Of a stretch of DNA of 53,713 nt, positions 2,477-53,713 are shown piece after piece. The notes beneath the pieces are model-generated. The model was not told where the DNA came from, did not search any database, and saw only the letters and a program-made list of their open reading frames with translations. Both the position numbers and the translations under genes were made by a program. Numbering within the stretch: position 1 is the first letter of the stretch; each line of letters starts with the position of its first letter. This stretch comes from Thermoleophilia bacterium (GTDB taxonomy: Bacteria > Actinomycetota > Thermoleophilia > Gaiellales > Gaiellaceae), in the NCBI GenBank assembly GCA_025936995.1, contig JAICSH010000010.1, positions 1 to 53,713 on the forward strand. The letters run 5' to 3'.

Positions 2477-3429
2477 CAGCCGAGCGGTGGATGCGAGCGC
2501 CGCCAGAGCGGTGAGCGCTGATACGCCGCGGCGGTCGTGTTCCAGCTCCGGCTCAGCGCCGCGAAGCGGGCGAGCTCGGCTCGTCCCCGCCTCGTCGGGT
2601 AGCCGACGCCGGGGTCGAGGAGCTCGTAGCCGGCGCTGCGCAGGACGTCGCCGGCGACCTCCTCGAAGGAGAGCGCGTCCTCGCGGCTCATCTGGCTGCG
2701 CCAGTCGCGGAGTCCGGGCGTCGGAGGCTGCGCGAGATTCCGGTGCTCGGGCATGTTCGCGGCATCGCTGATGCGGGTGTGGTCGAGCATGCCGGGCTCC
2801 CACCGCAGCGAGGCGTGTTCGCACACCCGGCGCAGCTCGCGCTCCGGCTCGGCCACGAGATCCTCGTAGCGGAGCTCGAGGTAGCGCTCGCCCGCGTGCC
2901 GGCCGAGCCGCCGGGCGGCGCGGATCTCGGTGCGCCACCGGGCTGCGAATTGCGCCACGGTGCGCGGGTGCGCCCACGTCTTGCCCGCGAATCCCGCGGG
3001 CAGCTCGAGGAACGAGAGCGCGGCGTCGCGCCCGTCGCGGACGAGGTGAACCCAGATCGCGTCCGGAAAGAGCCGCTCGAGCAGCGGGAGCTGCTGCATG
3101 TAGAGCGGCGTCTTGTCGCCCCAGCGCGGCTTTCCCTGCCGCTCGGCGTACGTCTCGAAGATCGCGCGGATCGCCTCGGTGGTCGTCATCCCTTCGCGCA
3201 GGTGCGGCCAGACGTCCTCGGGCGTGACGCCCCAGTCGTACAGCGTCCTCAGGCGCCCGAGGTCGTCGAGGAACTCGGCGAGCTTGGGCCGACGCCCGTG
3301 CCGGTGGGCGAGCTGCGGGACGAAGAACGTCTCGTAGGGGACTGCGAGCTCGCTGTTCCGGTCGAGCATCACGCGCAGGAGCGTCGTGCCGGAGCGGCCG
3401 ACGCCGAGGACGATCAGAGGTGGAGCCAT
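2476..3429 (-). CDS. Sulfotransferase family protein (PAPS-dependent type)
   Basis: A 317-residue protein with the 5'-phosphosulfate loop GRSGTTLL near residues 11-18, and a 3'-phosphate site around LVRDGRDAALS in the middle. This is typical of the bacterial Sulfotransfer_3/stf0-like group. Such enzymes move sulfate from PAPS to hydroxyls on glycans, lipids or small molecules; the substrate here cannot be read. The stop abuts the hairpin terminator. A TAGGCT box (3439-3444) lies 9 nt before the ATG and overlaps the stop codon of the upstream luciferase-like gene, so it may have its own leaderless promoter. Confidence 0.85.
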   Translation of the reverse strand: MAPPLIVLGVGRSGTTLLRVMLDRNSELAVPYETFFVPQLAHRHGRRPKLAEFLDDLGRLRTLYDWGVTPEDVWPHLREGMTTTEAIRAIFETYAERQGKPRWGDKTPLYMQQLPLLERLFPDAIWVHLVRDGRDAALSFLELPAGFAGKTWAHPRTVAQFAARWRTEIRAARRLGRHAGERYLELRYEDLVAEPERELRRVCEHASLRWEPGMLDHTRISDAANMPEHRNLAQPPTPGLRDWRSQMSREDALSFEEVAGDVLRSAGYELLDPGVGYPTRRGRAELARFAALSRSWNTTAAAYQRSPLWRRSHPPLG

Positions 3430-3438
3430 GGACGCGAG

Positions 3439-3444
3439 AGCCTA
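3439..3444 (-). promoter_or_regulatory. Candidate -10 box for leaderless sulfotransferase mRNA
   Basis: TAGGCT on the minus strand, 9 nt from ATG 3429. It overlaps the stop codon (3442-3444) of the gene upstream. Confidence 0.4.
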
Positions 3445-4452
3445 GAGGACCAGCTCGGCGAGCGTTCGCAACGCCTCGGGCTGCGTCGTGCCGAGGACGA
3501 GCGTCGTGATGGGCGTCTCCCGCCACGCAGCCAGCCGCTCCGCGATCCGCTCCTTCGGCCCGACGAGCGAGACCGCGTCGACGAGCTCGTCGGGCACCGC
3601 CGCAATCGCCTCTCGCTGCTTGCCCGAGAGGTACAGCTCCTGGATCCGCTCGGCCTCGTCCTCCCAGCCGAAGCGCCGGACGAGCGCGTTGTAGAAGTTC
3701 CGCCCCTTCGCGCCCATGCCGCCGACGTAGAGCGCGACGTGAGGCCGTAGCGCGTCGAGCAGCGCGGGCACGTCGTCGCCGACGAAGACGCTTGCCGTGG
3801 CCGCGATCTCGAAGCCGTCGCGCGCGGCCGCGAGGCTCGCGCCGAACGCCTCGTCGAACCGTTCGGGCGCGACGAAGATCGGCAGCCAGCCGTCGGCGAT
3901 CTCCGCCGCGAGCGCGACGTTCTTCGGTCCGAGGGCGGCGAGGTAGATCGGGATCTCGGCGCGCAGCGGGCGCAGCATGAGCTTGAGCGGCTTGCCGAGC
4001 CCGGTCGCGCCCGGCCCGTCCCAGGGGATCCGGTAGTGCTCCCCGTCGTGCTCCACGACCTGCCGTCGCAGTGCGGCGCGGACGATCTCGACGTACTCGC
4101 GCGTCTTGCCGAGCGGCTTCCCCCACGGCTGGCCGTGCCAGCCCTCCACGACCTGCGGGCCCGAGGTGCCGAGCCCGAGCAGAAAGCGTCCGCCGGAGAG
4201 GAGGTCGAGCGTCGCCGCAGTCATCGCCGCGTTCGCGGGCGTACGGCCTGGGATCTGCATGATCGCCGAGCCGAGTTTGATGCGCTCCGTCCGCGCGGCC
4301 AGCCAGCCGAGGACGCTCACCGCATCGGTTCCCCACGCCTCGGCGACCCAGACGGAGTCGAAGCCGAGCCCCTCCGCCTCCTCCACTAGTGGAAAGAGGT
4401 CGGCCGGGTTCGTTCCCGGGGGCGCGTAGCCGAGGCTCAGGCCCAACTTCAT
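3442..4452 (-). CDS. LLM-class flavin (F420)-dependent oxidoreductase
   Basis: A 336-residue bacterial-luciferase-like TIM barrel. It begins MKLGLSLGYAPPGTNPADL, continues with AEGLGFDSVWVAEAWGTDAV and the IKLGSAIMQIPGRTPANAAMTAATLDLLSGGRFLLGLG block, and ends with the PITTLVLG strand. This layout is typical of actinobacterial F420-dependent (or FMN-dependent) monooxygenase/reductase family members. Substrate unknown. The same frame stays open far upstream through the antisense of helD, but the start at 4452 is fixed by the family N terminus and by a TACAGT box 7 nt upstream. It is divergent from helD with only 12 bp between start codons. Confidence 0.88.
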   Translation of the reverse strand: MKLGLSLGYAPPGTNPADLFPLVEEAEGLGFDSVWVAEAWGTDAVSVLGWLAARTERIKLGSAIMQIPGRTPANAAMTAATLDLLSGGRFLLGLGTSGPQVVEGWHGQPWGKPLGKTREYVEIVRAALRRQVVEHDGEHYRIPWDGPGATGLGKPLKLMLRPLRAEIPIYLAALGPKNVALAAEIADGWLPIFVAPERFDEAFGASLAAARDGFEIAATASVFVGDDVPALLDALRPHVALYVGGMGAKGRNFYNALVRRFGWEDEAERIQELYLSGKQREAIAAVPDELVDAVSLVGPKERIAERLAAWRETPITTLVLGTTQPEALRTLAELVL

Positions 4453-4465
4453 TAGGGTGACTGTA
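4453..4465. promoter_or_regulatory. Interlocked divergent leaderless promoters
   Basis: Plus strand: TAGGGT (4453-4458), 6 nt before ATG 4465 of the helicase. Minus strand: TACAGT (4465-4460), 7 nt before ATG 4452 of the oxidoreductase. The minus-strand box includes the first base of the helicase start codon. Both boxes fit the recurring TANNNT spacing in this window. Confidence 0.6.
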
Positions 4466-6429
4466 TGGCGCATCCCGAGCTCGAAGCGGAACAGGCCTAC
4501 GTCGACCGCGCCTACGACCAGCTCGACCACATGCGGTCGACGGTCGCGCGCACGCAGGAGGCGATGGCGACCGAGTGGGCGGCGCTCAACATGGAGGCCT
4601 GGGTCAAGCGCCGGATGCGGACCTTCGAGGACGCCGAGCGCGGGCTCGTCTTCGGGCGACTCACGCTCGACGGCACCCCGCGTCCGCTCTACGTCGGCCG
4701 GCGCTGGGTGCACGACGACGAGCACGAGTCCCTCGTCGTCAACTGGCAGGCGCCCGCGGCCCGGCCGTTCTACACGGCGACGCCCCAGACCCCGCACGGC
4801 GTCCAGCAGCGCCGCCGCTTCCGCGCAGACGGACGCCGCCTCCTGGACATCTCCGACGAGTCGCTCGACGGCAGCGCAGTCGAGGGCGCGAGCGTCTCCG
4901 ACTTCCTCCTCGAGGAGCTCGAGCGCCGGCGCGACGCGCGCATGCGCGACATCGTCGCGACGATCCAGTCCGACCAGTACCGGCTGATCACGGCCGAGCC
5001 CGAAGGCGCGCTGGTCGTGCAGGGCGGGCCCGGAACCGGGAAGACGGCCGTCGGCCTCCACCGCGCGTCGTGGCTGCTCTACACCCATCGCGAACGGCTC
5101 CGCCGCGTGCTCGTCGTCGGGCCGAACCCCACCTTCATGGACTACGTCTCGCACGTCCTCCCGACGCTCGGCGAGGAGGCGGTCGAGCAGCGCGCGGTCA
5201 CCGAGCTGGTCGACGGGATCGAGGTCGGGCGCGAGGAGGAGCCCGACGTCGCGCGCCTGAAAGGCGATCCGCGGCTGCGCGAGGTCGTGGCGCGCGCGGT
5301 CGAGATCGCGGTCGTCCCGGCGCCGCAGGAGCTCGTCACGCTCGTCGACGGCGTCTACGTCCGCGTCCGCGAGCGAGACGTTGCAGTGCTCCTTGACGAG
5401 GCGCTCGACGCGGGCTCGCCGGTGGGGCTCGCGCGCGAACGGTTCCGGATGGCCGTGCTCCGCCGTTTCTACGAGCGCTACGGGGAGCTGTTCGGCCCGC
5501 GCGCGCTGCGCAGCTTCGACGAGCTCGAGCGCGCGCTCCGCCGCGGCGGCTTCCTCACGCGCTGGCTCGACCGGGTCCTGCCGCTCCCGCAGCCCGAGAA
5601 GCTCGTCGCGCGGCTCCTGACCTCGCCGGCCGCGCTCGAAGCGGCGTCCGAAGGCGTGCTGGAGGCGGACGAGCGCAAACTCCTGCTCCGCGACCGGCCC
5701 CGCCGGATGTCCGATCTCTGTTGGAGCGACCACGACGTCGCGCTGCTGGACGAGGCGCGAGCGCTGCTCGCCGGCGCGCCGCGGACGTACGGCCACGTGA
5801 TCGTCGACGAGGCGCAGGACCTGTCGCCGATGCAGCTGCTCGCGATCTCGCGACGCGCGATCGACGGCTCGCTCACGATCCTCGGCGACGTGGCGCAGGC
5901 GACCGGCCCCGTCGTCTACCGACGGTGGCAGGAGCTCGAGCCGTATCTCCCCGACGAGGCCGAGATGGAGATCGAGGAGCTGCGCCACGCCTATCGCGTC
6001 CCGGCCGAGATCATGGACTTCGCGCTGCCCCTGCTCGATCTGATTGCGCCCGAGGTCGAACCGCCGCTCGCGTATCGCAAGGGTGGAGATCGGCCGCGGC
6101 TCGTGCAGGTCGGCGAGGAGGAGCTGCTGCCGGCCGCGCTGCGCGAGGCGTCCGAGCTCGCCGAACGCGACGGGCTGCTCGCGATCATCGCGCCGCGCTC
6201 GCTGGCGGGTGCAGTGCCGGACGCCGACATCTTCGACGAGCTCTCGGTGCCGGTGCTGACCCCGCGGCAGGCGAAGGGCCTCGAGTTCGACCACGTGGTC
6301 GTCCTCGAACCGGCGGCGATCGCGGACGACGGAGATCGCGGGCTACGGGAGCTCTACGTCGCGCTGACGCGTCCGACGAAGACGCTCGTCGTCGTCCACG
6401 CGAGGCCCCTGCCGGAGGGCCTCGGCTAG
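4465..6429 (+). CDS. helD: HelD-like ATP-dependent helicase / RNA polymerase recycling factor
   Basis: A 654-residue UvrD/Rep-type superfamily 1 ATPase. The N-terminal coiled coil (residues about 1-60) would enter the RNA polymerase secondary channel. Walker A GGPGTGKT is at residues 187-194 within the HelD-typical VVQGGPGTGKTAVGLHR; Walker B VIVDEAQD is near residues 445-452; motif TPRQAKGLEFDHVVV and the final LYVALTRPTKTLVVVH close the second RecA domain. HelD proteins release RNA polymerase from stalled complexes, and some actinobacterial members (HelR) protect against rifamycins. It is not a DNA-repair UvrD: it lacks that length and has the HelD N terminus. The stop codon overlaps that of the convergent sulfotransferase by CTAG. 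Confidence 0.88.
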   Translation: MAHPELEAEQAYVDRAYDQLDHMRSTVARTQEAMATEWAALNMEAWVKRRMRTFEDAERGLVFGRLTLDGTPRPLYVGRRWVHDDEHESLVVNWQAPAARPFYTATPQTPHGVQQRRRFRADGRRLLDISDESLDGSAVEGASVSDFLLEELERRRDARMRDIVATIQSDQYRLITAEPEGALVVQGGPGTGKTAVGLHRASWLLYTHRERLRRVLVVGPNPTFMDYVSHVLPTLGEEAVEQRAVTELVDGIEVGREEEPDVARLKGDPRLREVVARAVEIAVVPAPQELVTLVDGVYVRVRERDVAVLLDEALDAGSPVGLARERFRMAVLRRFYERYGELFGPRALRSFDELERALRRGGFLTRWLDRVLPLPQPEKLVARLLTSPAALEAASEGVLEADERKLLLRDRPRRMSDLCWSDHDVALLDEARALLAGAPRTYGHVIVDEAQDLSPMQLLAISRRAIDGSLTILGDVAQATGPVVYRRWQELEPYLPDEAEMEIEELRHAYRVPAEIMDFALPLLDLIAPEVEPPLAYRKGGDRPRLVQVGEEELLPAALREASELAERDGLLAIIAPRSLAGAVPDADIFDELSVPVLTPRQAKGLEFDHVVVLEPAAIADDGDRGLRELYVALTRPTKTLVVVHARPLPEGLG

Positions 6430-7196
6430 ATCCCGCGCTCGGGAAAGAGCAGGCTGTAGCCGTAGCGCCGGACGCGGCGCTCGTAGCGGAGCGAGACGAG
6501 GTCGAGGTAGACCCGCATCCGCGGGTCCCGCCTCAGCTCCTGCCAGCGCCGGAAGTACTTCTCGTTCGCCCCGGTGTCGACCGCCTCGCTCGGCGGGACG
6601 GGCTCAAGCTGGAGGAAGTCGAAGATCGCGCGCAGCTCAGCCGCCGGGTCACGTATGAGCTGCTCGTACTGGAGGACGTACACGCGCTCCAGGTGCCCGC
6701 GGTCCTCCTCGAACAGCGCATGGCAGCGGAGCCAGTGCTCGAACATCCGGTCGAAGCGTCTCGTGCCGCGCCACTTGGCCGTCGGGATCGAGACAGGAAT
6801 CGGGTGGCGGACGATGACGACGAACGAGGAGTTCGGATAGAGCTCCTGGAGGAATCGCGTCTTGATCAGGTTCGGCGGGGACTTCTCGAGCAACAGCGGT
6901 CGCGAGAGGTCCCAGTGCGGCGACCACTCCTCGAACAGCCTCCTCGCGCTCTCCTCCGAGACGAGCGGCGAGCTCTCGGTCAGGTGCATCTCGGGCGCGA
7001 AGCCGAAGCGTCCGGGGCGCCCGTACTCGTGGTCGCTCGGGTAGACGCTCTGGAGATGCTGCCCCTCGTCGGCCGGCGCGCCGGTACCCGAGAAGCCGCT
7101 GACCTGCGGGTGCGCCGCCAGCAGCCGCGCGAGCAGCGTCGTGCCGCTGCGGTGCAGGCCGGCGAGGAAGACGAGCCGGTGCGCCTGCCCCTCCAT
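6426..7196 (-). CDS. Sulfotransferase family protein (second)
   Basis: A 256-residue protein. The PAPS loop LAGLHRSGTTLLARLL lies near residues 12-27, followed by LLLEKSPPNLIKTRFL and the 3'-phosphate motif FVVIVRHPIPVS. It is shorter than and clearly different from the first sulfotransferase. I placed the start at ATG 7196 because the P-loop must lie near the N terminus and a TACGAT box is 9 nt upstream; the frame is open further but reads as antisense sequence. Substrate unknown; a role in sulfating cell-surface glycan is possible only by neighbourhood. Confidence 0.85.
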   Translation of the reverse strand: MEGQAHRLVFLAGLHRSGTTLLARLLAAHPQVSGFSGTGAPADEGQHLQSVYPSDHEYGRPGRFGFAPEMHLTESSPLVSEESARRLFEEWSPHWDLSRPLLLEKSPPNLIKTRFLQELYPNSSFVVIVRHPIPVSIPTAKWRGTRRFDRMFEHWLRCHALFEEDRGHLERVYVLQYEQLIRDPAAELRAIFDFLQLEPVPPSEAVDTGANEKYFRRWQELRRDPRMRVYLDLVSLRYERRVRRYGYSLLFPERGI

Positions 7197-7205: not shown

Positions 7206-7246
7206 ATCGTACGCAGCGGCCCAGCCCTCCCCGCATGAAGTAGCGT
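7206..7246. promoter_or_regulatory. Divergent -10 boxes, sulfotransferase and aldo/keto reductase
   Basis: Minus strand TACGAT (7211-7206), 9 nt before ATG 7196. Plus strand TAGCGT (7241-7246), 7 nt before ATG 7254. No Shine-Dalgarno sequence precedes either start. Confidence 0.5.
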
Positions 7247-7253
7247 CGAGCCG

Positions 7254-8165
7254 ATGCGCACGCGCTTCCTCGGCGAAGGCGGTCCGGAGGTCTCGGTCGT
7301 CGGGCTCGGCACGAACAACTTCGGCGGACGCATCGACTACGAGCAGTCGCTGGCCGTGATCGACGCCGCGCTCGAGGCCGGCGTGACGCTGTTCGACACG
7401 GCCGACATCTACGGCCAGGGAGCGAGCGAGGAGTACATCGGCCGCGCGCTCGAGGGCCGTCGCGACCGCGTGCTCATCGCGACGAAGTTCGGGAAGCCGA
7501 TGGACGAGCTCCCGGAGGAGCGGCGCGGCACGCCCGACTACATCCGGTGGGCGGTCGAGAGCTCGCTCCGGCGCCTGCGTACCGACGTGATCGACGTCTA
7601 CCAGATGCACGAGCCCGACCCGTCGACTTCGATCGAGGAGACGCTGGGCGCGCTCAACGACCTCGTTCACCAGGGCAAGGTGCGCTGGATCGGCTCGTCG
7701 AACTTTTCCGCCGGGCAGATCGAGGTCGCGGAGGAGGTCGCGCGCGGCGCCGGCTTCCACCGCTTCGTCTCGGCTCAGAACCACTACTCGCTCGCCGTGC
7801 GCGAGGCGGAGGACGAGGTCCTGCCGGCCTGCGAGATGCTGCGGATCGGCTTCCTGCCGTACTTCCCTCTTGCGAGCGGGCTGCTGACGGGCAAGTACAG
7901 CCGCGGCGAGCAGGCGGCGGAGGGACGGCTGGCCGGACGCGAGATCGCGGAGGAACGCTGGGATCGCGCCGAGGCGCTGCAGCGCTACGCCGAGCAGCGC
8001 GGCATCTCGCTCCTCGAGGTCTCGACCGGCGGCCTGCTCGCGATGCCGGCCGTCACGTCGGTGATCGCCGGCGCGACGAAGCCGGAGCAGGTGCGCGCGA
8101 ACGTCGCCGCGGGCGAGTGGGAGCCGAGCGCCGAGGACGTGGAGGAGCTGCGGGCGCTCCGCTGA
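7254..8165 (+). CDS. Aldo/keto reductase
   Basis: A 303-residue NADPH-dependent (beta/alpha)8 reductase. The catalytic tetrad is visible: Asp48 and Tyr53 in LFDTADIYGQG, Lys78 in IATKFG, His119 in YQMHEPD. The strand GKVRWIGSSNFSAGQI and the C-terminal VIAGATKPEQVRAN (cofactor phosphate binding) match the YhdN/Tas-like family. The substrate is an unspecified carbonyl compound. It is preceded by a TAGCGT box 7 nt upstream of the ATG. Its TGA overlaps the first codon (CTG) of the broken GNAT frame that follows, so the two were probably one operon. Confidence 0.9.
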   Translation: MRTRFLGEGGPEVSVVGLGTNNFGGRIDYEQSLAVIDAALEAGVTLFDTADIYGQGASEEYIGRALEGRRDRVLIATKFGKPMDELPEERRGTPDYIRWAVESSLRRLRTDVIDVYQMHEPDPSTSIEETLGALNDLVHQGKVRWIGSSNFSAGQIEVAEEVARGAGFHRFVSAQNHYSLAVREAEDEVLPACEMLRIGFLPYFPLASGLLTGKYSRGEQAAEGRLAGREIAEERWDRAEALQRYAEQRGISLLEVSTGGLLAMPAVTSVIAGATKPEQVRANVAAGEWEPSAEDVEELRALR

Positions 8166-10028: not shown

Positions 10029-10657
10029 GCCTGCGCGAGCACCCACTGGAACGTCACCTCCCCCGGCTCCGGCTCCGGTTCCTCGAACGTGACGAGCGCG
10101 TCCCGCTCGATCGTGAATCCCGCCTCGCGGACGAGCCCCGAGTTGACCGCAGGATCGAAGCCTGCAAAGAACGTCGGAGCTCCGAGCCACTCCCCGGTCC
10201 AGCCGGGATTGTCGGCGGCGCCGAACGCCGTGAGCAACCAGCCGCCCGGCACGAGCCAGCCGTGGATCCGCTCGAGGAGCGGTCCGAGCAGCTCGCGCGG
10301 GACGTGGTTGAAGACGTAGAACGAGGCGACGGCGTCGAACGAGGCAGGCGGGAGCTCGAGCTCGGTGAAGTCGGCGCAGAGGAACTCGGCCCCCGGGATC
10401 GCGACGCGCGCGCGTGCGACCTGGTGCGTCGAGATGTCGACGCCGGTCACTGCGAACCGCCCGGCGAGCCGCTGCGTCTCCGGGGTGCCGGCGCCGCAGC
10501 CGAGCTCCAGGAGCCGAGCCCCCGCGCCGAGCCGCGAGACGAGCTCGTCCTCCCACTCGCGGCGGGGATCGCCGACGATGCGCGTGCGCCACTCGGCGAA
10601 CGTGTCGCCGATGGCGTCGTAGCCGTCCGCGACGATCTGCGTCCGTGGATCGGGCAC
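10025..10657 (-). CDS. Class I SAM-dependent methyltransferase
   Basis: A 210-residue enzyme. Motif I LLELGCGAGTPET is near residue 50, followed by GVDISTHQVARAR, the acidic EFLCADFTELELPPASFDAVASFYVFNHV and the LLGPLLERIHGWLVPGGWLL block. This is the common small-molecule (UbiE/COQ5-like) fold. First gene of a coupled trio with the ATP-grasp and 98-residue proteins. The GTG start is set by a TAGCAT box 7 nt upstream; an upstream ATG in the same frame would run across the divergent promoter. Substrate unknown. Confidence 0.82.
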   Translation of the reverse strand: MPDPRTQIVADGYDAIGDTFAEWRTRIVGDPRREWEDELVSRLGAGARLLELGCGAGTPETQRLAGRFAVTGVDISTHQVARARVAIPGAEFLCADFTELELPPASFDAVASFYVFNHVPRELLGPLLERIHGWLVPGGWLLTAFGAADNPGWTGEWLGAPTFFAGFDPAVNSGLVREAGFTIERDALVTFEEPEPEPGEVTFQWVLAQA

Positions 10658-10664: not shown

Positions 10665-10692
10665 ATGCTACTTCGGGGCCGCCCACTACACT
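10665..10692. promoter_or_regulatory. Divergent -10 boxes, methyltransferase and flippase-like operons
   Basis: Minus strand TAGCAT (10670-10665), 7 nt before GTG 10657. Plus strand TACACT (10687-10692), 9 nt before GTG 10702, the first codon of a micro-ORF that overlaps the start of the flippase-like gene. Confidence 0.5.
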
Positions 10693-10701: not shown

Positions 10702-10725
10702 GTGAAGGTGGTGGCCACAGCGTGA
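10702..10725 (+). other. Possible leaderless 7-codon upstream ORF
   Basis: GTG 10702 begins GTG AAG GTG GTG GCC ACA GCG TGA, whose stop overlaps the GTG of the membrane-protein gene at 10722 (GTGA). The preceding TACACT box makes it the first start on the mRNA. It may load ribosomes that restart at the overlap. Purely sequence-based. Confidence 0.35.
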
Positions 10726-11696: not shown

Positions 11697-13813
11697 ACTG
11701 GCTCGCGCCTCCGGTGGTCGAGCTGCGGAGGCCCGCCGCGGTGCCCGCGGGTGCGTTGTGGCGACTCGTGACGCCGGCCGCCGTGGCCGCGCTGCTCGGA
11801 ATCTCGCGTCTCCTGCCGGAGACGGGATTCGGGCTATGGGTGCGGCTCGCCGCCGGGACACTGGTCGTGATCCTGCCGGGCGTGTTCGTCGCGCGCTGCC
11901 TCGGCCAGCGGAGCGCCGCCGCGGCCTTCGCATCGTCCGTCACGCTCGTGGGCGCCGGGCTGGCGCTGACCTTCGCCGTCGGAGGGTCGCTCGACGTGAC
12001 GCTCGCCTTCCTGCTCGCCGCCGGCGCGCTCGCCTTCGTCTGGTCGCTCACGGGCCGCAACGCGCGGGAGGTCAGGCTGCCCGGCGCGGCGCGTTTCATG
12101 CGCGGCTTCCTCGTGGTCGGCGGCCTCGGGCTCGGCGTCGGCCTCTGGTTCGTGCAGGGCGCGTTCACCGGCGACACGTTCTTCCATCTCGGACGGATGC
12201 GGAAGCTCGACGCGCTCGGCTCGCTCTCGCTGCACAACGTGGGCGAGTTCGCGCACGGCGGCCTCCATCCCGGCTACGCGTTCCCGATGTGGCACGCGTG
12301 GCTCGCGCTGGTGGCGAGACTCGCCGGCGTCGATCCCGCGAGCGTCGCAGCTCACGAGTCGAGCCTGCTCGCGCCGCTCGCCCTCGTCCTCGCCTTCGAG
12401 ATGGGCTGGGCGATCTTCCGCTCGACGGGCCTCGCGTTCGCCGTCGTGCTCGGCCAGGTCGCGATCAAATGCCTCGCGCCGGGACACGCGGGCGTATATC
12501 CCTTCCTCTGGGAGCCGTCGACGGTCGCCACGCAGCTGCTCGTGCCCGCCGCGATCGCGTTCTTCTTCCACTTCGTCCGGAGGCCGAGCCGGCCGGTTGC
12601 GATCATGCTCGCCGCGACCTCGGGCTCGCTCGCGCTCGTCCACCCGACGTACGCGCTGTTCCTCGCGATTCCCCTGGGAGCGTTCGTCGTCGCGCGTGTG
12701 CTGCTCACGCGAGGTACCGATCTCCGGAACGGCGTCCTCGGGTTTGCCGTCTTCGGCCTGCCGATGTCGCTCGCCTTCATCTGGCTCGAGCCGGTCGTGC
12801 AGCAGACGATTCCGGTGTCCCCGGGGCCGAAGCAGCTCCAGGCGAACCTCGACCACTACCACGTGGATCTCGTCGTGCACTCGCTCTCGCGCTACAGTCT
12901 CCAGGCCGCTCGTATCGACCGGAACGGATCGATCGCGATCGCGGCGCTGCTTCTCGTGCCTCTGGCGGTCTTCGCCCGGCGGCGGCGCTGGGGTGCGCTC
13001 GTGCTCGGGGGCGCCGTCGCGGTGCTCGGCACCGAGCTGTGGCCGCTCGTCTTCCCGCACTTCTCGGACGCAGTGTCGCTTTCGCAGTCACGGCGACTGT
13101 CCGGCTTCATCCCGTTCGCGGTCGCCCTCGCCGGCGGCGCCGCGATCGTGAGCCGCTTCTCCCGGACGCTCGCGATCCTGCTCGGCCTGATCTCCGGGAT
13201 CTGGCTCCAGGTCGTCTACGCCGGAGACTTCGGCCTGCGCGCACGGGCAACCGAGCCGGCCGCGCCCGTGTGGATCGCGCTCTACGGCGGGATCGCCGCG
13301 CTCGTGATCGGAGCCTTGCTCGCGTGGCGGCGCCGGGACCGCCCGGTGGCGGCGGTCGGCCGTCAGCGCGGGATCACGACCGCGCTCGCCGTCCTCCTCT
13401 TCGCGCTGCCCGTGGCCGTGCACGGCTTCTCGAACTGGTCGCCGAAGACGGCGGAGGACAAGTACGCCCTGACTCCCGGCCTGATCCGCTTCCTGCAGCG
13501 GGACGTACCGCCCCGGTCGGTCGTCATCGCCGACCTCGGGACGAGCTACCGGGCCACGGCGTTCGCTCCGGTCTACGTCGTGGCGGTGCCGCCGACGCAT
13601 GCGGCGAACACGCGGCCGAACGAGCTGCGCAAGCGGAGACTCGCCGTGCTGCGGTTCCTCAGGCAGCCCACGCTCGACGTCGCGCAGCGCTGGCGGGCAC
13701 AGTGGATCGTCCTGACCCGCGACGAGCGCCTGCGGGCGATCGCCCGGCTGGGCCGGCCCGTCTACGAGGACGAGCGGTTCGTGGTCTTCCGCGCATTACC
13801 GTTGCCGCGGTGA
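11693..13813 (+). CDS. GT-C-type polytopic glycosyltransferase-like membrane protein
   Basis: A 706-residue protein with about 14-16 hydrophobic helices and a soluble C-terminal region of about 120 residues. After an early helix lies GDTFFHLGRMRKLDAL, resembling the acidic loop-1 motif of GT-C enzymes that use polyprenyl-phosphate sugars; HPGYAFPMWHAWLALVARL follows. The C-terminal part (DKYALTPGLIRFLQRDVPPRSVVIADLGTSY) matches the periplasmic segment of large actinobacterial membrane proteins of this type. It probably adds a sugar on the outer face of the membrane. ATGA overlap with the flippase-like gene and GTGA overlap with the next GT4 show one operon. Confidence 0.75.
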   Translation: MNWLAPPVVELRRPAAVPAGALWRLVTPAAVAALLGISRLLPETGFGLWVRLAAGTLVVILPGVFVARCLGQRSAAAAFASSVTLVGAGLALTFAVGGSLDVTLAFLLAAGALAFVWSLTGRNAREVRLPGAARFMRGFLVVGGLGLGVGLWFVQGAFTGDTFFHLGRMRKLDALGSLSLHNVGEFAHGGLHPGYAFPMWHAWLALVARLAGVDPASVAAHESSLLAPLALVLAFEMGWAIFRSTGLAFAVVLGQVAIKCLAPGHAGVYPFLWEPSTVATQLLVPAAIAFFFHFVRRPSRPVAIMLAATSGSLALVHPTYALFLAIPLGAFVVARVLLTRGTDLRNGVLGFAVFGLPMSLAFIWLEPVVQQTIPVSPGPKQLQANLDHYHVDLVVHSLSRYSLQAARIDRNGSIAIAALLLVPLAVFARRRRWGALVLGGAVAVLGTELWPLVFPHFSDAVSLSQSRRLSGFIPFAVALAGGAAIVSRFSRTLAILLGLISGIWLQVVYAGDFGLRARATEPAAPVWIALYGGIAALVIGALLAWRRRDRPVAAVGRQRGITTALAVLLFALPVAVHGFSNWSPKTAEDKYALTPGLIRFLQRDVPPRSVVIADLGTSYRATAFAPVYVVAVPPTHAANTRPNELRKRRLAVLRFLRQPTLDVAQRWRAQWIVLTRDERLRAIARLGRPVYEDERFVVFRALPLPR

Positions 13814-18352: not shown

Positions 18353-18378
18353 AGGGTAGACGCCGGGGCCGGTACGGT
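18353..18378. promoter_or_regulatory. Divergent leaderless promoters of fcl and gmd
   Basis: Minus strand TACCCT (18358-18353), 7 nt before ATG 18345. Plus strand TACGGT (18373-18378), 8 nt before GTG 18387. The two boxes are 14 bp apart, so fcl and gmd are likely co-controlled. Confidence 0.55.
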
Positions 18379-18386: not shown

Positions 18387-19367
18387 GTGGCGAAGCGGAA
18401 GGCGTTCATCACGGGCATCACGGGCCAGGACGGCTCGTATCTCGCCGAGATCCTGCTCGAGAAGGACTACGAGGTCTACGGGATGATCCGCCGCTCGAGC
18501 TCGTTCAACACCGCGCGGATCGACCACATTTTCGGGGATGTCGAGCTCGTCTTCGGCGACCTCACCGACGGCTCCGTTCTCAACCGGCTGATGCGCACGA
18601 TCCAGCCGGACGAGGTCTACAACCTCGGCGCGCAGAGCCACGTCCAGGTCAGCTTCGAGATCCCGGAGTTCACTGCCGACACGACAGGCATGGGCACGTT
18701 GCGGCTGCTCGACGCGATCCGCGAGGAGGGCGTGCGGTGCCGCTTCTACGAGGCAGGGTCGAGCGAGATGTTCGGCAAGGTGCTCGAGACGCCGCAGACC
18801 GAGGCGACGCCGTTCTATCCGCGCAGCCCGTACGGCGTCTCGAAGGTCTTCGGCTACTGGATCACGCGCAACTACCGCGAGGCGTACGGGATGTACGCCG
18901 TCAACGGGATCCTGTTCAACCACGAGTCGCCGCGTCGCGGCCCCACCTTCGTCACGCGCAAGGTGACGCGCGCCATCGGCGCGATCCTGCGCGGCGAGCA
19001 GGACGAGCTGCGGCTCGGGAACCTCGAGGCGAAGCGCGACTGGGGCTTCGCGCGCGACTACATGGAAGGCGCGTGGCAGATGCTGCAGGCGGAGGAGCCC
19101 GACGACTACATTCTCGCCACGGGTGAGACACATTCGGTGCGGGAGCTGCTCGACGAGGCGTTCGGCTACGTCGAGCTCGACTGGAACAAGTACGTGAAGA
19201 TCGACGAGCGGTACTTCCGGCCCTCCGAGGTCGACCTGCTGCTCGGCGACGCGTCGAAGGCGCGGGAGAAGCTCGGCTGGGAGCCGCGGGTCCGCTTCCC
19301 GGAGCTCGTGCGGATGATGGTCGACCACGACCGCGAGCGCCGCCACACCGAAGAGCACTACGTTTAG
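18387..19367 (+). CDS. gmd: GDP-mannose 4,6-dehydratase
   Basis: A 326-residue extended SDR enzyme: NADP loop [56 protein letters not shown], the active site [10 protein letters not shown] with Tyr/Lys in [21 protein letters not shown], and [18 protein letters not shown]. All are Gmd signatures. It makes GDP-4-keto-6-deoxy-D-mannose, the shared precursor of GDP-L-fucose (Fcl, divergent neighbour) and GDP-perosamine (aminotransferase at 28427). The start is GTG with a TACGGT box 8 nt upstream and no ribosome site. Confidence 0.94.
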
Positions 19368-22784: not shown

Positions 22785-22791
22785 TACTGTA
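22785..22791. promoter_or_regulatory. Overlapping divergent -10 boxes
   Basis: TACTGTA: plus-strand TACTGT (22785-22790) lies 8 nt before GTG 22799; minus-strand TACAGT (22791-22786) lies 6 nt before ATG 22779. The two boxes share five base pairs, so the two promoters should exclude each other. Confidence 0.55.
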
Positions 22792-26269: not shown

Positions 26270-26275
26270 TATGTT
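26270..26275 (+). promoter_or_regulatory. Candidate leaderless -10 box
   Basis: TATGTT, 9 nt before GTG 26285. Confidence 0.35.
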
Positions 26276-30256: not shown

Positions 30257-30262
30257 ACTCTA
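30257..30262 (-). promoter_or_regulatory. Candidate leaderless -10 box
   Basis: TAGAGT on the minus strand, 6 nt before ATG 30250. Confidence 0.45.
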
Positions 30263-34932: not shown

Positions 34933-34938
34933 AGGATA
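34933..34938 (-). promoter_or_regulatory. Candidate leaderless -10 box of wzm
   Basis: TATCCT on the minus strand, 9 nt before ATG 34923, in the 51-bp gap behind GT2 copy B. Confidence 0.4.
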
Positions 34939-36510: not shown

Positions 36511-36547
36511 ATCCTAGCCACGAACCCCGGAGCACCCGCCCTAGACT
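36511..36547. promoter_or_regulatory. Divergent -10 boxes of two methyltransferase genes
   Basis: Minus strand TAGGAT (36516-36511), 7 nt before GTG 36503. Plus strand TAGACT (36542-36547), 25 nt before ATG 36573, which would give a short leader. Confidence 0.4.
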
Positions 36548-42451: not shown

Positions 42452-42457
42452 AGTGTA
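42452..42457 (-). promoter_or_regulatory. Candidate leaderless -10 box of the third Wzy-like gene
   Basis: TACACT on the minus strand, 7 nt before GTG 42444. Confidence 0.45.
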
Positions 42458-42546: not shown

Positions 42547-42552
42547 TAGCGT
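42547..42552 (+). promoter_or_regulatory. Candidate leaderless -10 box of glycoside hydrolase 1
   Basis: TAGCGT, 8 nt before GTG 42561. Confidence 0.45.
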
Positions 42553-44156: not shown

Positions 44157-44162
44157 TAGCTT
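44157..44162 (+). promoter_or_regulatory. Candidate leaderless -10 box of glycoside hydrolase 2
   Basis: TAGCTT, 8 nt before GTG 44171. It suggests the second hydrolase has its own promoter. Confidence 0.45.
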
Positions 44163-48620: not shown

Positions 48621-48626
48621 TATCCT
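48621..48626 (+). promoter_or_regulatory. Candidate leaderless -10 box
   Basis: TATCCT, 8 nt before GTG 48635. Confidence 0.45.
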
Positions 48627-48634: not shown

Positions 48635-49705
48635 GTGGCGCCCCTGAACATCCTCGTGACCGGGGCGTGCGGCGTTACGCCGAGGGCGATCGTCCGCTCC
48701 CTCCGCGCGAGCCGTGCTTTCTCGGACGCGACCCTCGTCGGCGCCGACCGCGGAGGCAACTGGTACGGCTTCTACGAAGGCCTCTACGACCGCGTGTACC
48801 GCGTGTCCGGGCCGAGCGATCCCGGTTATCCCGAGCTCGTCGCCGAAATCTGCCGGAGCGAGAGCATCGACGCGGCCGTCGTCGGGCCCGAGGCGGAGGT
48901 GCTCTTCTGGAGCGGGCGGGAGTTTCCCGTGCCGGCGCTGTTGCCTCCGCCCGGTCTCGTCGAGATCGCCATCAGCAAGAGCAAGCTCTACGACGCCCTG
49001 CGTGAGACAGGCCTCGTGCCGCGCTACCGCATCGTGAGCCGGGACGATCTGCTCGCGCGGAGCGGCCTCGACCTCGACGGCGGCCCGGCGTGGCTCCGCG
49101 ACTACTCCGACGCGTCCTCGAGCGGCATCGGCTCGATCCAGGTGACAGAGCCGGAGGAGGCGTACGCATGGGCCTACCTCAACCCGGAGATCCCGAGCTA
49201 CATGGTCGCCGAGCACCTGCCCGGCCGGAACATCGCGTGCTCGCTCCTCTTTCACGACGGCCGGCTGCTCAAGGCGGGCTGTTACGAGCGGCTCGAGTAC
49301 TTCATGGGACACCTCGCCGTCTCTGGTGTGACCGGGAACATCAACCGCGGGCGTCTCGTCAACGACGAGCGAGCGCGCACGCTCGCCGAGCAGGCGCTTC
49401 GCTTCCTCGCCGAGATCACGGGCGAGCCCGTGCACGGCCTCCTCACCGTCGACCTCCGCGAGGACCGCACCGGCGCGCTCAAGATCACGGAGATCAACGT
49501 CCGGCACGTCGCGGCCACCTCGGCTCTCGCCGCCGGCGGGGCGAACATGGCCGAGGCGCAGGTCCTCGCGACGCTCGGCCGGCTCGACGAGATCGGCGAG
49601 CCCGTCCCGCACTTCCCCGACGACAACGTGATCCTGCGCGACATCGACGGCGTGCCGCTCTGGCTCACGGACTACCGGGAGCTCGCGGTCGGGGAGCACG
49701 CGTGA
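48635..49705 (+). CDS. ATP-grasp enzyme, carbamoyl-phosphate-synthase-like (second)
   Basis: A 356-residue protein with the same order as the one at 9012: N-terminal LNILVTGACGVTPRAIVRSLRAS, AAVVGPEAEVLFWSGREFPVPALLPPP, SKSKLYDALRETGLVPRYRIV, a catalytic region with YMVAEHLPGRNIACSLLFHDG, and the metal-binding end LKITEINVRHVAATSALAAGGANM. The family activates carboxylates with ATP for ligation. Substrates unknown; in a glycan locus it may add an amino acid or similar group. GTGA overlap with the PQQ-propeller lipoprotein suggests coupled expression. Confidence 0.78.
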   Translation: MAPLNILVTGACGVTPRAIVRSLRASRAFSDATLVGADRGGNWYGFYEGLYDRVYRVSGPSDPGYPELVAEICRSESIDAAVVGPEAEVLFWSGREFPVPALLPPPGLVEIAISKSKLYDALRETGLVPRYRIVSRDDLLARSGLDLDGGPAWLRDYSDASSSGIGSIQVTEPEEAYAWAYLNPEIPSYMVAEHLPGRNIACSLLFHDGRLLKAGCYERLEYFMGHLAVSGVTGNINRGRLVNDERARTLAEQALRFLAEITGEPVHGLLTVDLREDRTGALKITEINVRHVAATSALAAGGANMAEAQVLATLGRLDEIGEPVPHFPDDNVILRDIDGVPLWLTDYRELAVGEHA

Positions 49706-51176: not shown

Positions 51177-51182
51177 TATCGT
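51177..51182 (+). promoter_or_regulatory. Candidate leaderless -10 box of the Wzz-like gene
   Basis: TATCGT, 8 nt before GTG 51191. Confidence 0.45.
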
Positions 51183-51190
51183 CGCCACTC

Positions 51191-52033
51191 GTGACAGCGC
51201 CTGCTCCCCCCTCGCACGGCTTCGATCCGGAGGCCGAGCAGGAGGTCGACTTCGCGAAGTACGTCCGTCTCCTGGCCGTCCGCTGGTGGCTGCTCGCGGC
51301 GGGAGTGGTCGCCGGCGCGGTTATCGGCTACCTCGTCTCGCTCGGCGGGACGCAGGTCTATGCGGCAACCGCGACGCTCTACCTCGGCCAGCCGTACTCG
51401 GCCAGCGGCACCGTCGCCCTGCAGTCGCCGCAGACGAATCCGTCCACGGTCGGCACGGTCGTCCACAGCCAACAGGTCCAGCAGGCGGTGGCCGTCCACT
51501 GCAAGGCAAGCGTGAAGGACTTTCGCAAGGGGATCTCGACCAAGACGGTCACCGGCTTCATCGCCAAGAACGGCCAGACTCCGCTCGTCCAGCTCACCGT
51601 CCAGGCGAAGAAGGCGAAGGTCGCCCAGTGCGCGGCGAACGGGCTCGCGAATGCGGCCGTGAAGAAGCTCAGCTCCTACGCCGACCAGAAGATCTCGACT
51701 CTGAGCAAGCAGATCGAGTTCGACAACAGCGACATCAAGACGATCACCGCCGCGATCTCGAACCCCGCCATCGCATCCACCGACAAGCTGATCCTCGAGA
51801 CGACGCTCCGCACGGACCAGCAGGACAAGATCGCTGCGACCCAGCTTCTCTCGCAGGCCAAGCAGGTGGAAAAGCCGCACGTGCTCGTCGGCGCGGCGGC
51901 GCGCAAGGTAACGGCGCGCAGCCGGCGCAACACCGTCGTCGTCGCCGCCCTGATCGGGCTGATCCTCGGCGCGCTCGCAGCGCTCCTCTGGGACAGCGTC
52001 GTCCCGCGGCTCGCACCGCGCAACGGCGACTGA
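51191..52033 (+). CDS. Wzz-like polysaccharide chain-length/co-polymerase protein
   Basis: A 280-residue protein with two membrane helices: KYVRLLAVRWWLLAAGVVAGAVIGYLVSL near residues 25-53 and VVVAALIGLILGALAALLWDSV near residues 252-273. Between them is an extracytoplasmic region with a beta start (VYAATATLYLGQPYSASG), SSTVGTVVHSQQVQQAV-like stretch and a long helical part (KKLSSYADQKISTLSKQIEFDNSDIKTITAAI). This is the Wzz/polysaccharide co-polymerase layout without the cytosolic tyrosine-kinase domain. It would set glycan length with one of the Wzy-like proteins. Confidence 0.8.
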   Translation: MTAPAPPSHGFDPEAEQEVDFAKYVRLLAVRWWLLAAGVVAGAVIGYLVSLGGTQVYAATATLYLGQPYSASGTVALQSPQTNPSTVGTVVHSQQVQQAVAVHCKASVKDFRKGISTKTVTGFIAKNGQTPLVQLTVQAKKAKVAQCAANGLANAAVKKLSSYADQKISTLSKQIEFDNSDIKTITAAISNPAIASTDKLILETTLRTDQQDKIAATQLLSQAKQVEKPHVLVGAAARKVTARSRRNTVVVAALIGLILGALAALLWDSVVPRLAPRNGD

Positions 52034-52035
52034 CT

Positions 52036-52041
52036 TAGGCT
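52036..52041 (+). promoter_or_regulatory. Candidate leaderless -10 box
   Basis: TAGGCT, 7 nt before GTG 52049, just after the Wzz-like stop codon. Confidence 0.45.
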
Positions 52042-52048
52042 CTCGCTC

Positions 52049-52990
52049 GTGTTCGAAGGGAAGCGCGTCGGGGTGGTCGTCCCCGCGTACGACGAGGAGG
52101 TGCTGATCGGCGCGACCATCGGCGGCATCCCGCCTCTCGTGGATCGGATCATCGTCGTGAACGACGCCTCCACGGACGGCACGAGCGAGCGCGCCGGGGA
52201 GGTCGGCGATCCGCGCGTCGAGGTGCTGTCGCACGAGCGGCGCGGCGGGGTCGGAGCGGCGATCCTCACCGGCTACCGCAAGGCGCTCGCCGAGGGGCTC
52301 GACGTCGTCGTGGTGATGAACGGCGACAACCAGATGGACGCGGACGACCTGCCCACGCTCGTCGAGCCGGTTGCGCGCGGCGAGCTCGATTACGCGAAGA
52401 CGAACCGCCTCTTCACCGGCCAGGCGTGGCAGCTCATCCCGAAGACGCGGTTCTTCGGCAACGCCGTCCTCTCGATGCTGACGAAGATCGCGTCGGGCTA
52501 CTGGCACGTCGCCGACTCGCAGTCCGGGTACACGGTGATCTCGCGGGAGATGCTCGAGCGGCTCGACCTCGACCATGTCTACACGAGCTACGGCTTCCCG
52601 AACGACATGCTCGTCCATCTCAACGTCTGGAACGCGCGGGTGCGCGACTTTCCGTCGCGTCCGATCTACGGGGTCGGCGAGCGCTCCAACATGCGCTATC
52701 GCCACGTCGTGCCGAGGATCGCGTGGCTGCTGGTGCGCGGCTTCTTCTGGCGGCTCTGGGAGAAGTACGTGAAGCGCGACTTCCACCCGCTCGTGTTCTT
52801 CTACGTCATGGGATTCATCGCGACGATCGCGGGCGTGGGGCTCGGGTTCGTCGTCGTCGGGTTCCGGATCGCCGGCGACTCTATTCCCGTCGCGACGGTC
52901 GTGCTCGTCGCGCTGCTCGTGATCTCGGGGCTCCAGTTCATCCTGTTCGCCATGTGGTTCGACATGGAGAGCAACAAAGACCTCCGCTGA
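52049..52990 (+). CDS. Glycosyltransferase family 2, Dpm/polyprenyl-phosphate-sugar-synthase-like
   Basis: A 313-residue GT2 with two C-terminal membrane helices. GVVVPAYDEEVLIGATIGGI, RIIVVNDASTDGTSERA, VGAAILTGYRKALAEGLDVVVVMNGDNQMDADDLPTLVEPV (DxD-like NGDNQMD), TKIASGYWHVADSQSGYTVISREML. The DSQSGY pattern and the two tail helices fit polyprenyl-phosphate mannose/glucose synthase-like enzymes. Its product could feed the GT-C-like membrane transferases at 11693 and 46760. Confidence 0.86.
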   Translation: MFEGKRVGVVVPAYDEEVLIGATIGGIPPLVDRIIVVNDASTDGTSERAGEVGDPRVEVLSHERRGGVGAAILTGYRKALAEGLDVVVVMNGDNQMDADDLPTLVEPVARGELDYAKTNRLFTGQAWQLIPKTRFFGNAVLSMLTKIASGYWHVADSQSGYTVISREMLERLDLDHVYTSYGFPNDMLVHLNVWNARVRDFPSRPIYGVGERSNMRYRHVVPRIAWLLVRGFFWRLWEKYVKRDFHPLVFFYVMGFIATIAGVGLGFVVVGFRIAGDSIPVATVVLVALLVISGLQFILFAMWFDMESNKDLR

Positions 52991-53041
52991 CCGCTCGGCC
53001 TCGTCCCGGCGGGACAGGTCCCGGTGCCGGGCTCGCGGCCA

Positions 53042-53137
53042 TGTCCGCACCGGACAGGCTTGCGGCGCGGCCGCGCTCCATCACGTGATGCGGGGCTTTT
53101 AGGGCCACGTCCGCGTGCCTGGCACCAAGACGTGGCC
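53042..53137. repeat. Intergenic hairpins
   Basis: The 183-bp gap 52991-53173 holds a hairpin TGTCCG-CAC-CGGACA (53042-53056) and a nested pair: GGCCACGTC (53103-53111) with GACGTGGCC (53129-53137), enclosing GTGCC-T-GGCAC (53115-53125). CTTTTA lies at 53096-53101, but no hairpin ends directly at it. They may be terminators for the upstream gene or copies of a dispersed palindromic repeat. Confidence 0.5.
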
Positions 53138-53161
53138 GCACGAGACGGGCTTCGCCACAGC

Positions 53162-53167
53162 TAGCAT
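53162..53167 (+). promoter_or_regulatory. Candidate leaderless -10 box of the decarboxylase gene
   Basis: TAGCAT, 6 nt before GTG 53174. Confidence 0.5.
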
Positions 53168-53173
53168 CGCCCC

Positions 53174-53713
53174 GTGCCAACCGCACTCGTAACGGGAGGC
53201 GCCGGCTTTCTCGGCTCGCACCTCTGCGAATACCTCCTCGAGCGCGAGCACCGCGTCATCTGCGTCGACAACCTCGTCACCGGCTCGCTGCACAACATCG
53301 AGCACATCCGCGACGACCGGTTCCGCTTCGTGCCGCATGACGTCTCCGAGCCGATCTACATCGAGGAGCCCGTCGACTTCGTCTACCACTTCGCGGCGCT
53401 CGCGAGCCCGCAGGACTACCTGCGGATGCCGCTCCACTCGCTCAAGGTCGGCTCATACGGGACGCATCACGCGCTCGGGCTCGCGAAATTCAAGCGCGCG
53501 CGCTTCCTCGTCGCCTCGACGAGCGAGGTCTACGGCGACCCGCAGGTGCACCCGCAGCCGGAGACGTACTGGGGCCACGTCAACCCGATCGGCCCGCGCG
53601 GCGTCTACGACGAGGCGAAGCGCTACGCGGAAGCCCTGACGACCGCCTACCGAACGGCCTGCGGGGGCAATACCGGGATCGTGCGGATCTTCAACACGTA
53701 CGGCCCCAGGATG
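53174..53713 (+). CDS. UDP-glucuronate decarboxylase-like SDR, N-terminal part
   Basis: The first 180 codons are present; the gene runs off the right edge. [21 protein letters not shown] is the NAD loop; [14 protein letters not shown] follows; [83 protein letters not shown] holds the [35 protein letters not shown] block of UXS/UDP-xylose synthases, including the Tyr/Lys pair. It would convert UDP-glucuronate to UDP-xylose. The start is GTG with a TAGCAT box 6 nt upstream. Confidence 0.85.

Follow-up and report, generated by a model that had tools for sequence, protein, structure and literature searches.

TANNNT boxes before gene starts in a Thermoleophilia genome: candidate leaderless promoters, some sharing letters with stop codons and opposing boxes

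In the genome of an uncultured, soil-type member of the Thermoleophilia, the hexamer TANNNT stands 6-9 nt before the start codons of many genes, usually in place of a Shine–Dalgarno (SD) site, and some of its letters also belong to the stop codon of the gene upstream or to a second box on the opposite strand. The best fit to this pattern, with a probability of roughly 0.87, is leaderless transcription from promoters that consist of a -10 element only, and whose letters are sometimes shared with neighbouring genes. TANNNT would then be the -10 element recognised by what is probably the housekeeping sigma factor, and a box at this distance would place the RNA start at, or within ~3 nt of, the first base of ATG or GTG, such that the ribosome could bind the 5′-terminal start codon without an SD interaction. 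Because the promoter seems to need the box alone, its letters could be common to neighbours. In some tandem genes the upstream TAG or TAA supplies the T-A-G/A of the box, so that 15-19 nt would end one protein, promote transcription, and start both a transcript and the protein that follows. Certain divergent genes lying close together have boxes that fuse (as ANNNTANNNT or TANNNTA) or interlock within a 12-bp gap, and polymerase could presumably take just one direction at once.

The TANNNT box before gene starts

The genome analysed is a metagenome-assembled genome (70% complete, without a 16S gene), from which 1.11 Mb and 1,099 motif-blind starts entered the genome-wide counts; the window, the whole 53,713-nucleotide stretch, contributed 49 motif-blind starts. 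Gene starts came from a home-made caller, and are termed blind when called without the motif and refined when moved to the nearest boxed candidate; boxed means exact TANNNT, and spacing is the number of nucleotides between box and start codon. The original prediction listed 22 starts in the window, and at all 22 positions TANNNT lies before ATG or GTG at the spacing it gave. As gene starts, 19 of the 22 match those of the caller, with 11 motif-blind and eight resting on the box itself through refinement; 10702 fails, and 42561 and 22779 stand apart. The boxes of the window are as follows.

3439..3444, minus: TAGGCT, box of 2476-3429, spacing 9; its TAG doubles as the stop of gene 3442-4452 (luciferase-like)
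4453..4458, plus: TAGGGT, box of the helicase-like gene 4465-6429, spacing 6; adjoins the opposite gene's start codon
4460..4465, minus: TACAGT, box of the luciferase-like gene 3442-4452, spacing 7; blind start 4473
7206..7211, minus: TACGAT, box of 6426-7196, spacing 9
7241..7246, plus: TAGCGT, box of 7254-8165, spacing 7
10665..10670, minus: TAGCAT, box of 10025-10657, spacing 7
13797..13802, plus: TANNNT, box of 13810-15063, spacing 7; within the upstream gene's end; blind start 13816
18353..18358, minus: TACCCT, box of 17425-18345, spacing 7
18373..18378, plus: TACGGT, box of 18387-19367, spacing 8
19359..19364, plus: TACGTT, box of 19372-20115, spacing 7; extends into the upstream gene's end
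22785..22791, both strands: TACTGTA, fused boxes of 22799 (plus, spacing 8) and 22779 (minus, spacing 6); gap 19
26270..26275, plus: TATGTT, box of 26285-27202, spacing 9; blind start 26252
30257..30262, minus: TAGAGT, box of 29573-30250, spacing 6; blind start 30109
34933..34938, minus: TATCCT, box of 34057-34923, spacing 9; blind start 34842
36511..36516, minus: TAGGAT, box of 35799-36503, spacing 7
42452..42457, minus: TACACT, box of 40381-42444, spacing 7; blind start 42192
42547..42552, plus: TAGCGT, box of 42561-44078, spacing 8
44157..44162, plus: TAGCTT, box of 44171-45661, spacing 8; blind start 44411
48621..48626, plus: TATCCT, box of 48635-49705, spacing 8; blind start 48656
51177..51182, plus: TATCGT, box of 51191-52033, spacing 8
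52036..52041, plus: TAGGCT, box of 52049-52990, spacing 7; 15 bp after the preceding gene, without stop fusion
53162..53167, plus: TAGCAT, box of 53174 onwards, spacing 6

The boxes at 13797..13802 and 19359..19364 had not been listed originally. The start at 10702 (plus, TACACT at 10687..10692) is rejected, its frame closing after seven codons. At 22779 a 162-aa minus-strand frame opens (22291-22779) that has no Pfam match and is unproven as a gene, while the plus-strand gene at 22799 has its blind start at 22778. The 42561 gene fell outside the refinement range, and its Pfam match (residues 69-231) requires a start upstream of the blind call at 42912; that of 44171-45661 likewise begins upstream of its blind call.

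TA-led genes are marked by a TANNNT-like box roughly 10 bp ahead of the start codon. Here the box is found at 6-9 nt before 219 of the 1,099 blind starts, far above shuffled sequence (200 shuffles: mean 14.9, maximum 23), and after refinement before 350 of 1,149 genes; when the distance is shifted, this procedure picks out 17-48 of the 1,149, and with a TNNNAT control motif 113. Within the window the blind figure is 12 of 49 (200 shuffles: mean 0.75, maximum 3). The positional peak that had been predicted is sharp, with 73, 76, 41, 29 and 16 blind starts at spacings 6-10 and a maximum at 6-7 nt, against 0-9 starts for any remaining spacing between 0 and 44; among 9,926 internal ATG and GTG codons none has TANNNT 6-8 nt upstream. 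Among unboxed divergent starts GANNNT and CANNNT are in excess and T[CGT]NNNT is not, which indicates that the A at base 2 and the final T matter most, and the degenerate boxes GANNNT, CANNNT and TANNNC add some further starts.

Boxed and SD starts are nearly mutually exclusive: a GGAGG-like site 5-10 nt before the start, present for many unboxed genes (206/754), occurs in only eight of the 350 boxed ones, bearing out the expectation that boxed starts usually lack it. Nor does the column composition of 200 boxed divergent sites reveal a shared -35 element, in agreement with the first reading. Four of these sites carry TTGAC upstream of the box, at -26 to -23, and the strongest 5-mers of the zone are rare (AGCGT 9, TCAAC 7 and TTGAC 4 per 200; shuffles 1.5, 1.0 and 0.8), so that a few boxed sites may possess a -35; across 31 orthologue pairs the zone contains no conserved stretch. 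The box itself is conserved: in a second class genome, G021, 51 of 58 boxed starts are still boxed (1/58 at a control distance), and seven of 93 unboxed starts have a boxed counterpart, 132 of 283 orthologue hits having been left out of this comparison.

How far this extends to the first genes of transcription units is a separate matter. Spacing, SD, TTG, -35 and conservation data all fit a -10 box that would set the transcript start at the start codon; the extension of leaderless transcription to most first genes was too strong, since exact TANNNT precedes 245 of 596 (41%, chance hits not subtracted). Of the divergent genes, 200 of 368 (54%) are boxed, and of the same-strand genes at least 60 bp behind their neighbour, 45 of 228 (20%). 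The listed genes were likewise taken to open transcription units, which suits the nine of 19 that are divergent and the three with a same-strand gap of at least 60 bp, but seven lie at gaps below 60 bp, two of the listed same-strand starts being only 12 and 15 bp behind the upstream gene. The caller leaves five of 14 divergent genes of the window unboxed, including the 42561 gene that does carry a listed box; unboxed first genes do not figure in the original list.

SD-led genes coexist with boxed ones and their SD use is canonical in this genome. The 16S tails recovered from 35 of 199 class genomes end in CACCTCCTTTC in 35 of 36 cases, G162 alone differing, in a search where the single mismatch allowed per match fell on the last letter and variants elsewhere in the pattern were missed; with normal tails and canonical SD use, loss of the anti-SD is rejected as a cause. 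RbpA, which helps open promoters in mycobacteria (PMC5302886), has no match in any of the 61 class genomes searched; this counts against the favoured explanation, and RbpA is rejected as a helper.

Fused and interlocked boxes of divergent genes

Overlapping, symmetric boxes on both strands are present in 17 of 184 divergent pairs, at an offset of -1 in six and +4 in 11, and among both-boxed pairs with gaps <80 these are the only offsets between -6 and +7. The 17 fused pairs have total gaps of 18-27 bp, with start codons 19-28 apart and spacings of 6 to 10. The fused motif with both start codons at one spacing has nine matches in the genome against two control matches. The helicase/luciferase-like pair of the window is arranged differently, its boxes interlocking at offset -7 in a 12-bp gap, where the minus-strand box and the ATG of the opposite gene have base 4465 in common. 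In nine genomes all 18 orthologous starts of this pair are boxed at 6-10 nt, across gaps of 12, 12, 12, 13, 33, 37, 354, 388 and 607 bp.

It is about an even chance that close box pairs and stop fusions alike reflect passive compaction of the genome together with cheap sharing of letters, and carry no regulatory meaning. Any TANNNT becomes a fused pair by one extra A, and this A shows no enrichment across the 200 boxed divergent genes as a whole (0.10 and 0.16). A general enrichment is thus rejected, and fusion may be chance kept by gene packing; the symmetry of bidirectional promoters is, moreover, already known (PMC12825309). Against this, the interlocked 12-13 bp layout occurs in four genomes, of which three share 74-81% protein identity with the genes described here, and stop fusion recurs behind different upstream genes. 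Both observations argue for the function of each box rather than for sharing itself. The 12-bp layout is absent from the closer G199 and G202 (91-92% helicase identity) and present in more distant relatives, which counts against the favoured explanation.

Upstream stop codons within the box

In tandem genes, the letter sharing takes the form of a stop codon whose TAG or TAA is half of the next gene's box. Counted from motif-blind starts, the T at +5 that completes the box is present in 50 of the 77 TAG/TAA junctions 9-13 nt long, versus three of 23 equally long TGA junctions and 39 of 312 TAG/TAA at gaps >40 (p ~1e-19). These 50 fusions come from 1,672 tandem pairs in five class genomes; refined starts give 26/720, 17/421 and 14/279 tandem pairs. 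In one class member, G007, the signal is weak, with T at +5 in one of three TAG/TAA junctions of 9-13 nt.

The junction at 3429 reads TAGTCT at spacing 8 in G199, whereas G021, one of three genomes keeping the neighbour, has a TGA stop there and lacks the fusion, which counts against the favoured explanation. At the best 30 loci of the GATase family, 24 genes are boxed and ten stop-fused, behind DUF72 genes in five cases, Aminotran_4 in four, and one gene without a Pfam match; at four of the six unboxed loci the stop and start codons overlap.

These overlaps are what might be expected if the same junction could use translational coupling, of which the stop-box would then be a by-product, stops 9-13 nt upstream favouring re-initiation and TAG being merely preferred; TAG and TAA do make up 77 of the 100 stops at gaps 9-13. 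Re-initiation leaves the T at +5 unexplained, given its contrast between TAG/TAA and TGA junctions of equal length, and this account is unlikely. There is a somewhat better than even chance that stop codons here are a standing source of promoters, in which TAG or TAA, a T at +5 and ATG or GTG would form a complete leaderless start, and junctions might toggle between overlap, giving one coupled transcript, and TAG-box, giving an independent leaderless one, with genes leaving or joining operons by very few changes.

The sharing of letters looks new, both with an upstream stop codon and between the fused or interlocked boxes of divergent pairs. No mention of stop-codon sharing was found in the accessible portions of three studies of TA-led leaderless genes (PMC3160421, PMC3898074, PMC12340547), nor was stop/-10 sharing found in a search of openly available full text that included passages of PMC2784483, PMC12548453, PMC10653884, PMC3160421 and PMC3898074.

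Transcript starts and relation to known systems

Were TANNNT a promoter box followed by short leaders (5-15 nt), the genes would be leadered and SD-less, a possibility slightly more remote again than coupling: spacings of 9-10 (45 of 235 blind starts) and a spacing unchanged in just 31 of the 51 conserved boxes, which also counts against the preferred reading, would suit it, but the peak at 6-7 nt matches the best box-to-start distance of 7 bp in E. coli (PMC12825309) and would put the RNA start at about the start codon, and TTG is nearly absent from boxed starts. That absence (2/235 boxed versus 71/864 unboxed blind starts, p = 5e-6) is expected if the 5′ end must be AUG or GUG; the choice of codon is observed, and from it we infer where the 5′ end lies.

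Leaderless transcription of this kind has precedents, TA-led leaderless genes being known from Actinobacteria and Deinococcus-Thermus (Zheng 2011, PMC3160421; Cortes 2013, PMC3898074; Zhong 2025, PMC12340547). These share TANNNT ~6-10 nt before the start, the lack of an SD and coexistence with SD-led genes, and the leaderless genes of M. tuberculosis also have no conserved -35. Unlike those systems, about half of divergent genes are boxed here, and box letters sometimes fall in stop codons and opposite boxes.

Beyond the class, the comparison sets are small (78-160 genes each). Boxed genes number 38/160 in Microbacteriaceae loci (controls 12 and 6), 21/113 on the D. peraridilitoris plasmid (controls 7 and 11), 11/137 in Streptomycetaceae loci (controls 4 and 5; hardly a peak), 9/108 in Niveispirillum (controls 11 and 11) and 14/78 in a mixed set of GC 0.53 (controls 11 and 11). 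Stop fusions with blind starts are absent from all five sets (0/74, 0/97, 0/71, 0/64 and 0/59 tandem pairs); because the sets are small, restriction of stop fusion to the class is only suggested.

Bidirectional promoters with a common symmetric -10 have been described, transcript starts 18 bp apart being commonest in E. coli, with 10 and 23 also common (Warman 2026, PMC12825309); the offsets of -1 and +4 would give 18 and 23 if both starts lay 6 nt from the box. In contrast to those promoters, each direction here would lead to the start codon of a protein gene, seemingly without a leader. Stop codons that overlap the SD of the next gene, as in TAGGAGG of B. subtilis (Palleja 2009, PMC2784483), offer a parallel in which upstream stop choice adapts to the next gene's signal. 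There the stop overlaps a ribosome site within a single mRNA, whereas the element described here is an apparent promoter box with a probable new transcript start.

A working gene start may be tiny, as 15-19 nt could combine the stop codon of one gene with a promoter and the starts of the next transcript and protein. This offers a concrete route by which genes in a tight tandem array could acquire promoters of their own. It would also alter the annotation of starts and operons in uncultured bacteria of this kind, where a 10-nt gap after TAG need not mean an operon.

The TANNNT box and the genes that carry it

The MAG that holds the window (contig C5) comprises 1.85 Mb in 69 contigs, is 70% complete and has a GC content of ~0.70. 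Its nearest named relative is palsa_556, an Actinomycetota MAG from palsa soil, with blastn blocks against stretches of this genome at 79–87% identity in six of nine cases and 65–76% in three. A home-made, motif-blind finder called 1,149 genes in 1.114 Mb (the window and 60 further stretches), and at least 80 upstream bases were present for 1,099 of 1,104 called starts.

The original prediction, that TANNNT recurs 6–9 nt before start codons, was correct: the hexamer stands there at 219 of the 1,099 blind starts, against a mean of 14.9 after dinucleotide shuffling of the 40 upstream bases, and in the window at 12 of 49 (shuffle mean 0.75). Over these 1,099 starts the distances peak sharply at 6–7 nt, with 73, 76, 41, 29 and 16 cases at 6, 7, 8, 9 and 10 nt, and 0–9 at any other single distance between 0 and 44 nt. 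In-frame ATG/GTG codons inside genes (9,926 in all) have the hexamer in 3, 0, 0, 0, 2 and 1 cases at 5–10 nt. Moving each start to the nearest boxed candidate (6–10 nt) marked 350 of the 1,149 genes; the same procedure marked 17, 32, 43 and 48 at four shifted distances, and 113 when the pattern was reversed to TNNNAT (TANNAT fits both patterns).

At orthologues in G021, a comparison genome of the class, 51 of 58 boxed starts are also boxed (1/58 at a control distance), and 7 of 93 unboxed starts are boxed there. This comparison used tblastn of the proteins against 706 kb of G021; of 283 hits, 96 were dropped for <50% identity or <60% coverage, 30 for having no nearby start codon and six for having no aligned N-terminus.

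With refined starts, the box precedes 200 of 368 genes in divergent orientation, 45 of 228 that stand on the same strand as their neighbour at 60 bp or more, and 18 of 211 overlapping genes; tight tandem genes carry it more commonly than overlapping ones (32/111 at gaps of 0–14, 22/70 at 15–29). These shares make "first genes" too narrow, and "most" too strong, a description of where leaderless transcription was proposed. The true boxed share is somewhat higher, since 293 unboxed divergent starts (this genome and G021) show excesses at 6–9 nt of GANNNT (38 against 8–19), CANNNT (26 against 5–12) and TANNNC (14 against 2–8).

Probable leaderless promoters

The leaderless promoter mechanism originally proposed is itself likely, judged from sequence, because Shine-Dalgarno (SD) sites are few (8/350 boxed, 206/754 unboxed starts), TTG start codons are nearly absent (2/235 against 71/864, p = 5e-6) and, as had been noted, boxed sites have no common -35. 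GGAGG-peaked, SD-led genes coexist with boxed genes in this genome, and of 36 16S tails matched in the class, 35 are normal. In one family member (G162, locus L141) the 16S 3' end reads CACCTCTTTTT instead of CACCTCCTTTC, altering the anti-SD core, which may be an assembly error.

CarD-type matches (PF02559) occur in 41 of 41 class genomes, with two or more in 38, of which one usually lies inside a frame of ~1,100 aa, which we take to be the repair-coupling factor. RbpA (PF13397) gave no match in 61 of 61 class genomes and was found in the Corynebacterium control. In M. tuberculosis, one study places the same box at 73% of primary starts, sees no conserved -35 there and classes as leaderless 26% of the genes that have a primary start (PMC3898074).

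Shared boxes in divergent pairs

Among 184 divergent pairs, both starts are boxed in 52, one in 96 and neither in 36. Where both are boxed and the gap is below 80 bp, the two boxes fuse at offset -1 (TANNNTA) in six pairs and at +4 (ANNNTANNNT) in 11, with no other offset between -6 and +7. Were both starts 6 nt from the box, start-to-start distances would be 18 and 23 bp; in E. coli bidirectional promoters, 18 bp is the commonest start distance and 23 is among two other common ones (PMC12825309). Actual start-codon distances in fused pairs are 19–28 bp, and the blind call already lay at 21 of 34 fused starts. One spacing of the fused motif with both start codons has nine matches in this genome against two for its control. 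Within the order it outnumbers the control in 40 of 53 genomes, and within the family in 33 of 43. In the other 146 class genomes it looks, by eye, nearer parity.

A fused box, TACTGTA, also occupies the 19-bp gap between the gene starting at 22799 and a frame divergent from it:

22291–22779, minus strand: possible small gene, a 162-aa open frame without a Pfam match, missed by the caller

The TACACT at 10687–10692 has no gene start in frame behind it; the next gene downstream, LPG synthase-like and called at 10761, may have a leader, or a frame error may be present.

In the window's pair of a luciferase-like gene (start 4452, minus strand) and a helicase-like gene (start 4465, plus strand), both starts are boxed in all nine genomes holding both gene starts, at gaps of 12, 12, 12, 13, 33, 37, 354, 388 and 607 bp. 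The helicase was found in 10 of 16 genus genomes, one copy being cut. With a 12-bp gap, the box of either gene touches or overlaps the opposite gene's start codon; layouts of 12 or 13 bp occur in this genome and three others at 74–81% protein identity, and the 12-bp layout is absent from the two closest genomes. Among the ten helicase hits, an internal stop is reported for two, and a contig end truncates one (loci L229, L230 and L231).

Stop codons as half a box

Where the second gene of a tandem pair is boxed, the stop codon of the gene before it can coincide with the opening three letters of the box, as it does in 26 of 720 tandem pairs (23 TAG, three TAA) here, in 17 of 421 pairs in G021 and in 14 of 279 pairs in G009. 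No other stop-to-box offset within 30 bases either way exceeds five cases. Upstream stops in this genome's tandem pairs are TGA in 457, TAG in 223 and TAA in 40, TAG being far above TAA.

At blind starts with gaps of 9–13 nt, the T at +5 that completes the box is present at 50 of 77 junctions with a TAG/TAA stop (21/39, 13/17, 10/11, 5/7 and 1/3 in the five genomes pooled) and at 3 of 23 with TGA. The proportions are 19/112 and 25/167 at gaps of 14–40, and 39/312 and 42/348 beyond 40 (Fisher test for the 9–13-nt TAG/TAA junctions, 1e-5 against TGA and 1e-19 against TAG/TAA at gaps >40). An in-frame stop effect is ruled out as the cause, since the gaps include non-multiples of three.

The window holds one such box:

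2476–3429: gene with the stop-fused box TAGGCT, whose TAG also ends the gene 3442–4452

Across nine genus loci of this gene the neighbour is kept in three (TAGGCT here, TAGTCT in G199, an unfused TGA in G021); four lack it and carry TGA, and two are cut or rearranged. For six of the 26 fusions a downstream orthologue aligned in the G021 stretches; four of the six have the upstream orthologue next to it, and three of these four are fused. A GATase-type gene has some match in 61 of 61 family genomes searched; among the best 30 loci, 24 are boxed (6–9 nt) and ten stop-fused. Upstream of those ten lie DUF72 (five), Aminotran_4 (four) and a gene without a Pfam match (one); the fusion therefore arose, or was retained, beside more than one kind of neighbour. 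The six unboxed loci comprise four with overlapping stop and start codons, one divergent and one cut.

Leaderless TANNNT genes are of a known kind: in Actinobacteria they make up ~20% of genes, and in D. radiodurans as many as 46.1% (PMC3160421). A Deinococcus study reports the box acting as a -10 region (PMC12340547). Shared -10 elements have been described (PMC12825309), as have stop codons overlapping SD sites (PMC2784483). A full-text literature search, which had most subscription papers outside its reach and included excerpts of PMC2784483, PMC12548453, PMC10653884, PMC3160421 and PMC3898074, found no description of stop codons as -10 boxes. In small samples of Streptomycetaceae and Microbacteriaceae, divergent gaps of at most 35 bp number 0/26 and 0/25, whereas this genome has 43/184, and stop fusions are found in 0 of 171 tandem pairs from the two families together. 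It is the stop-codon fusion that is the part worth pursuing.
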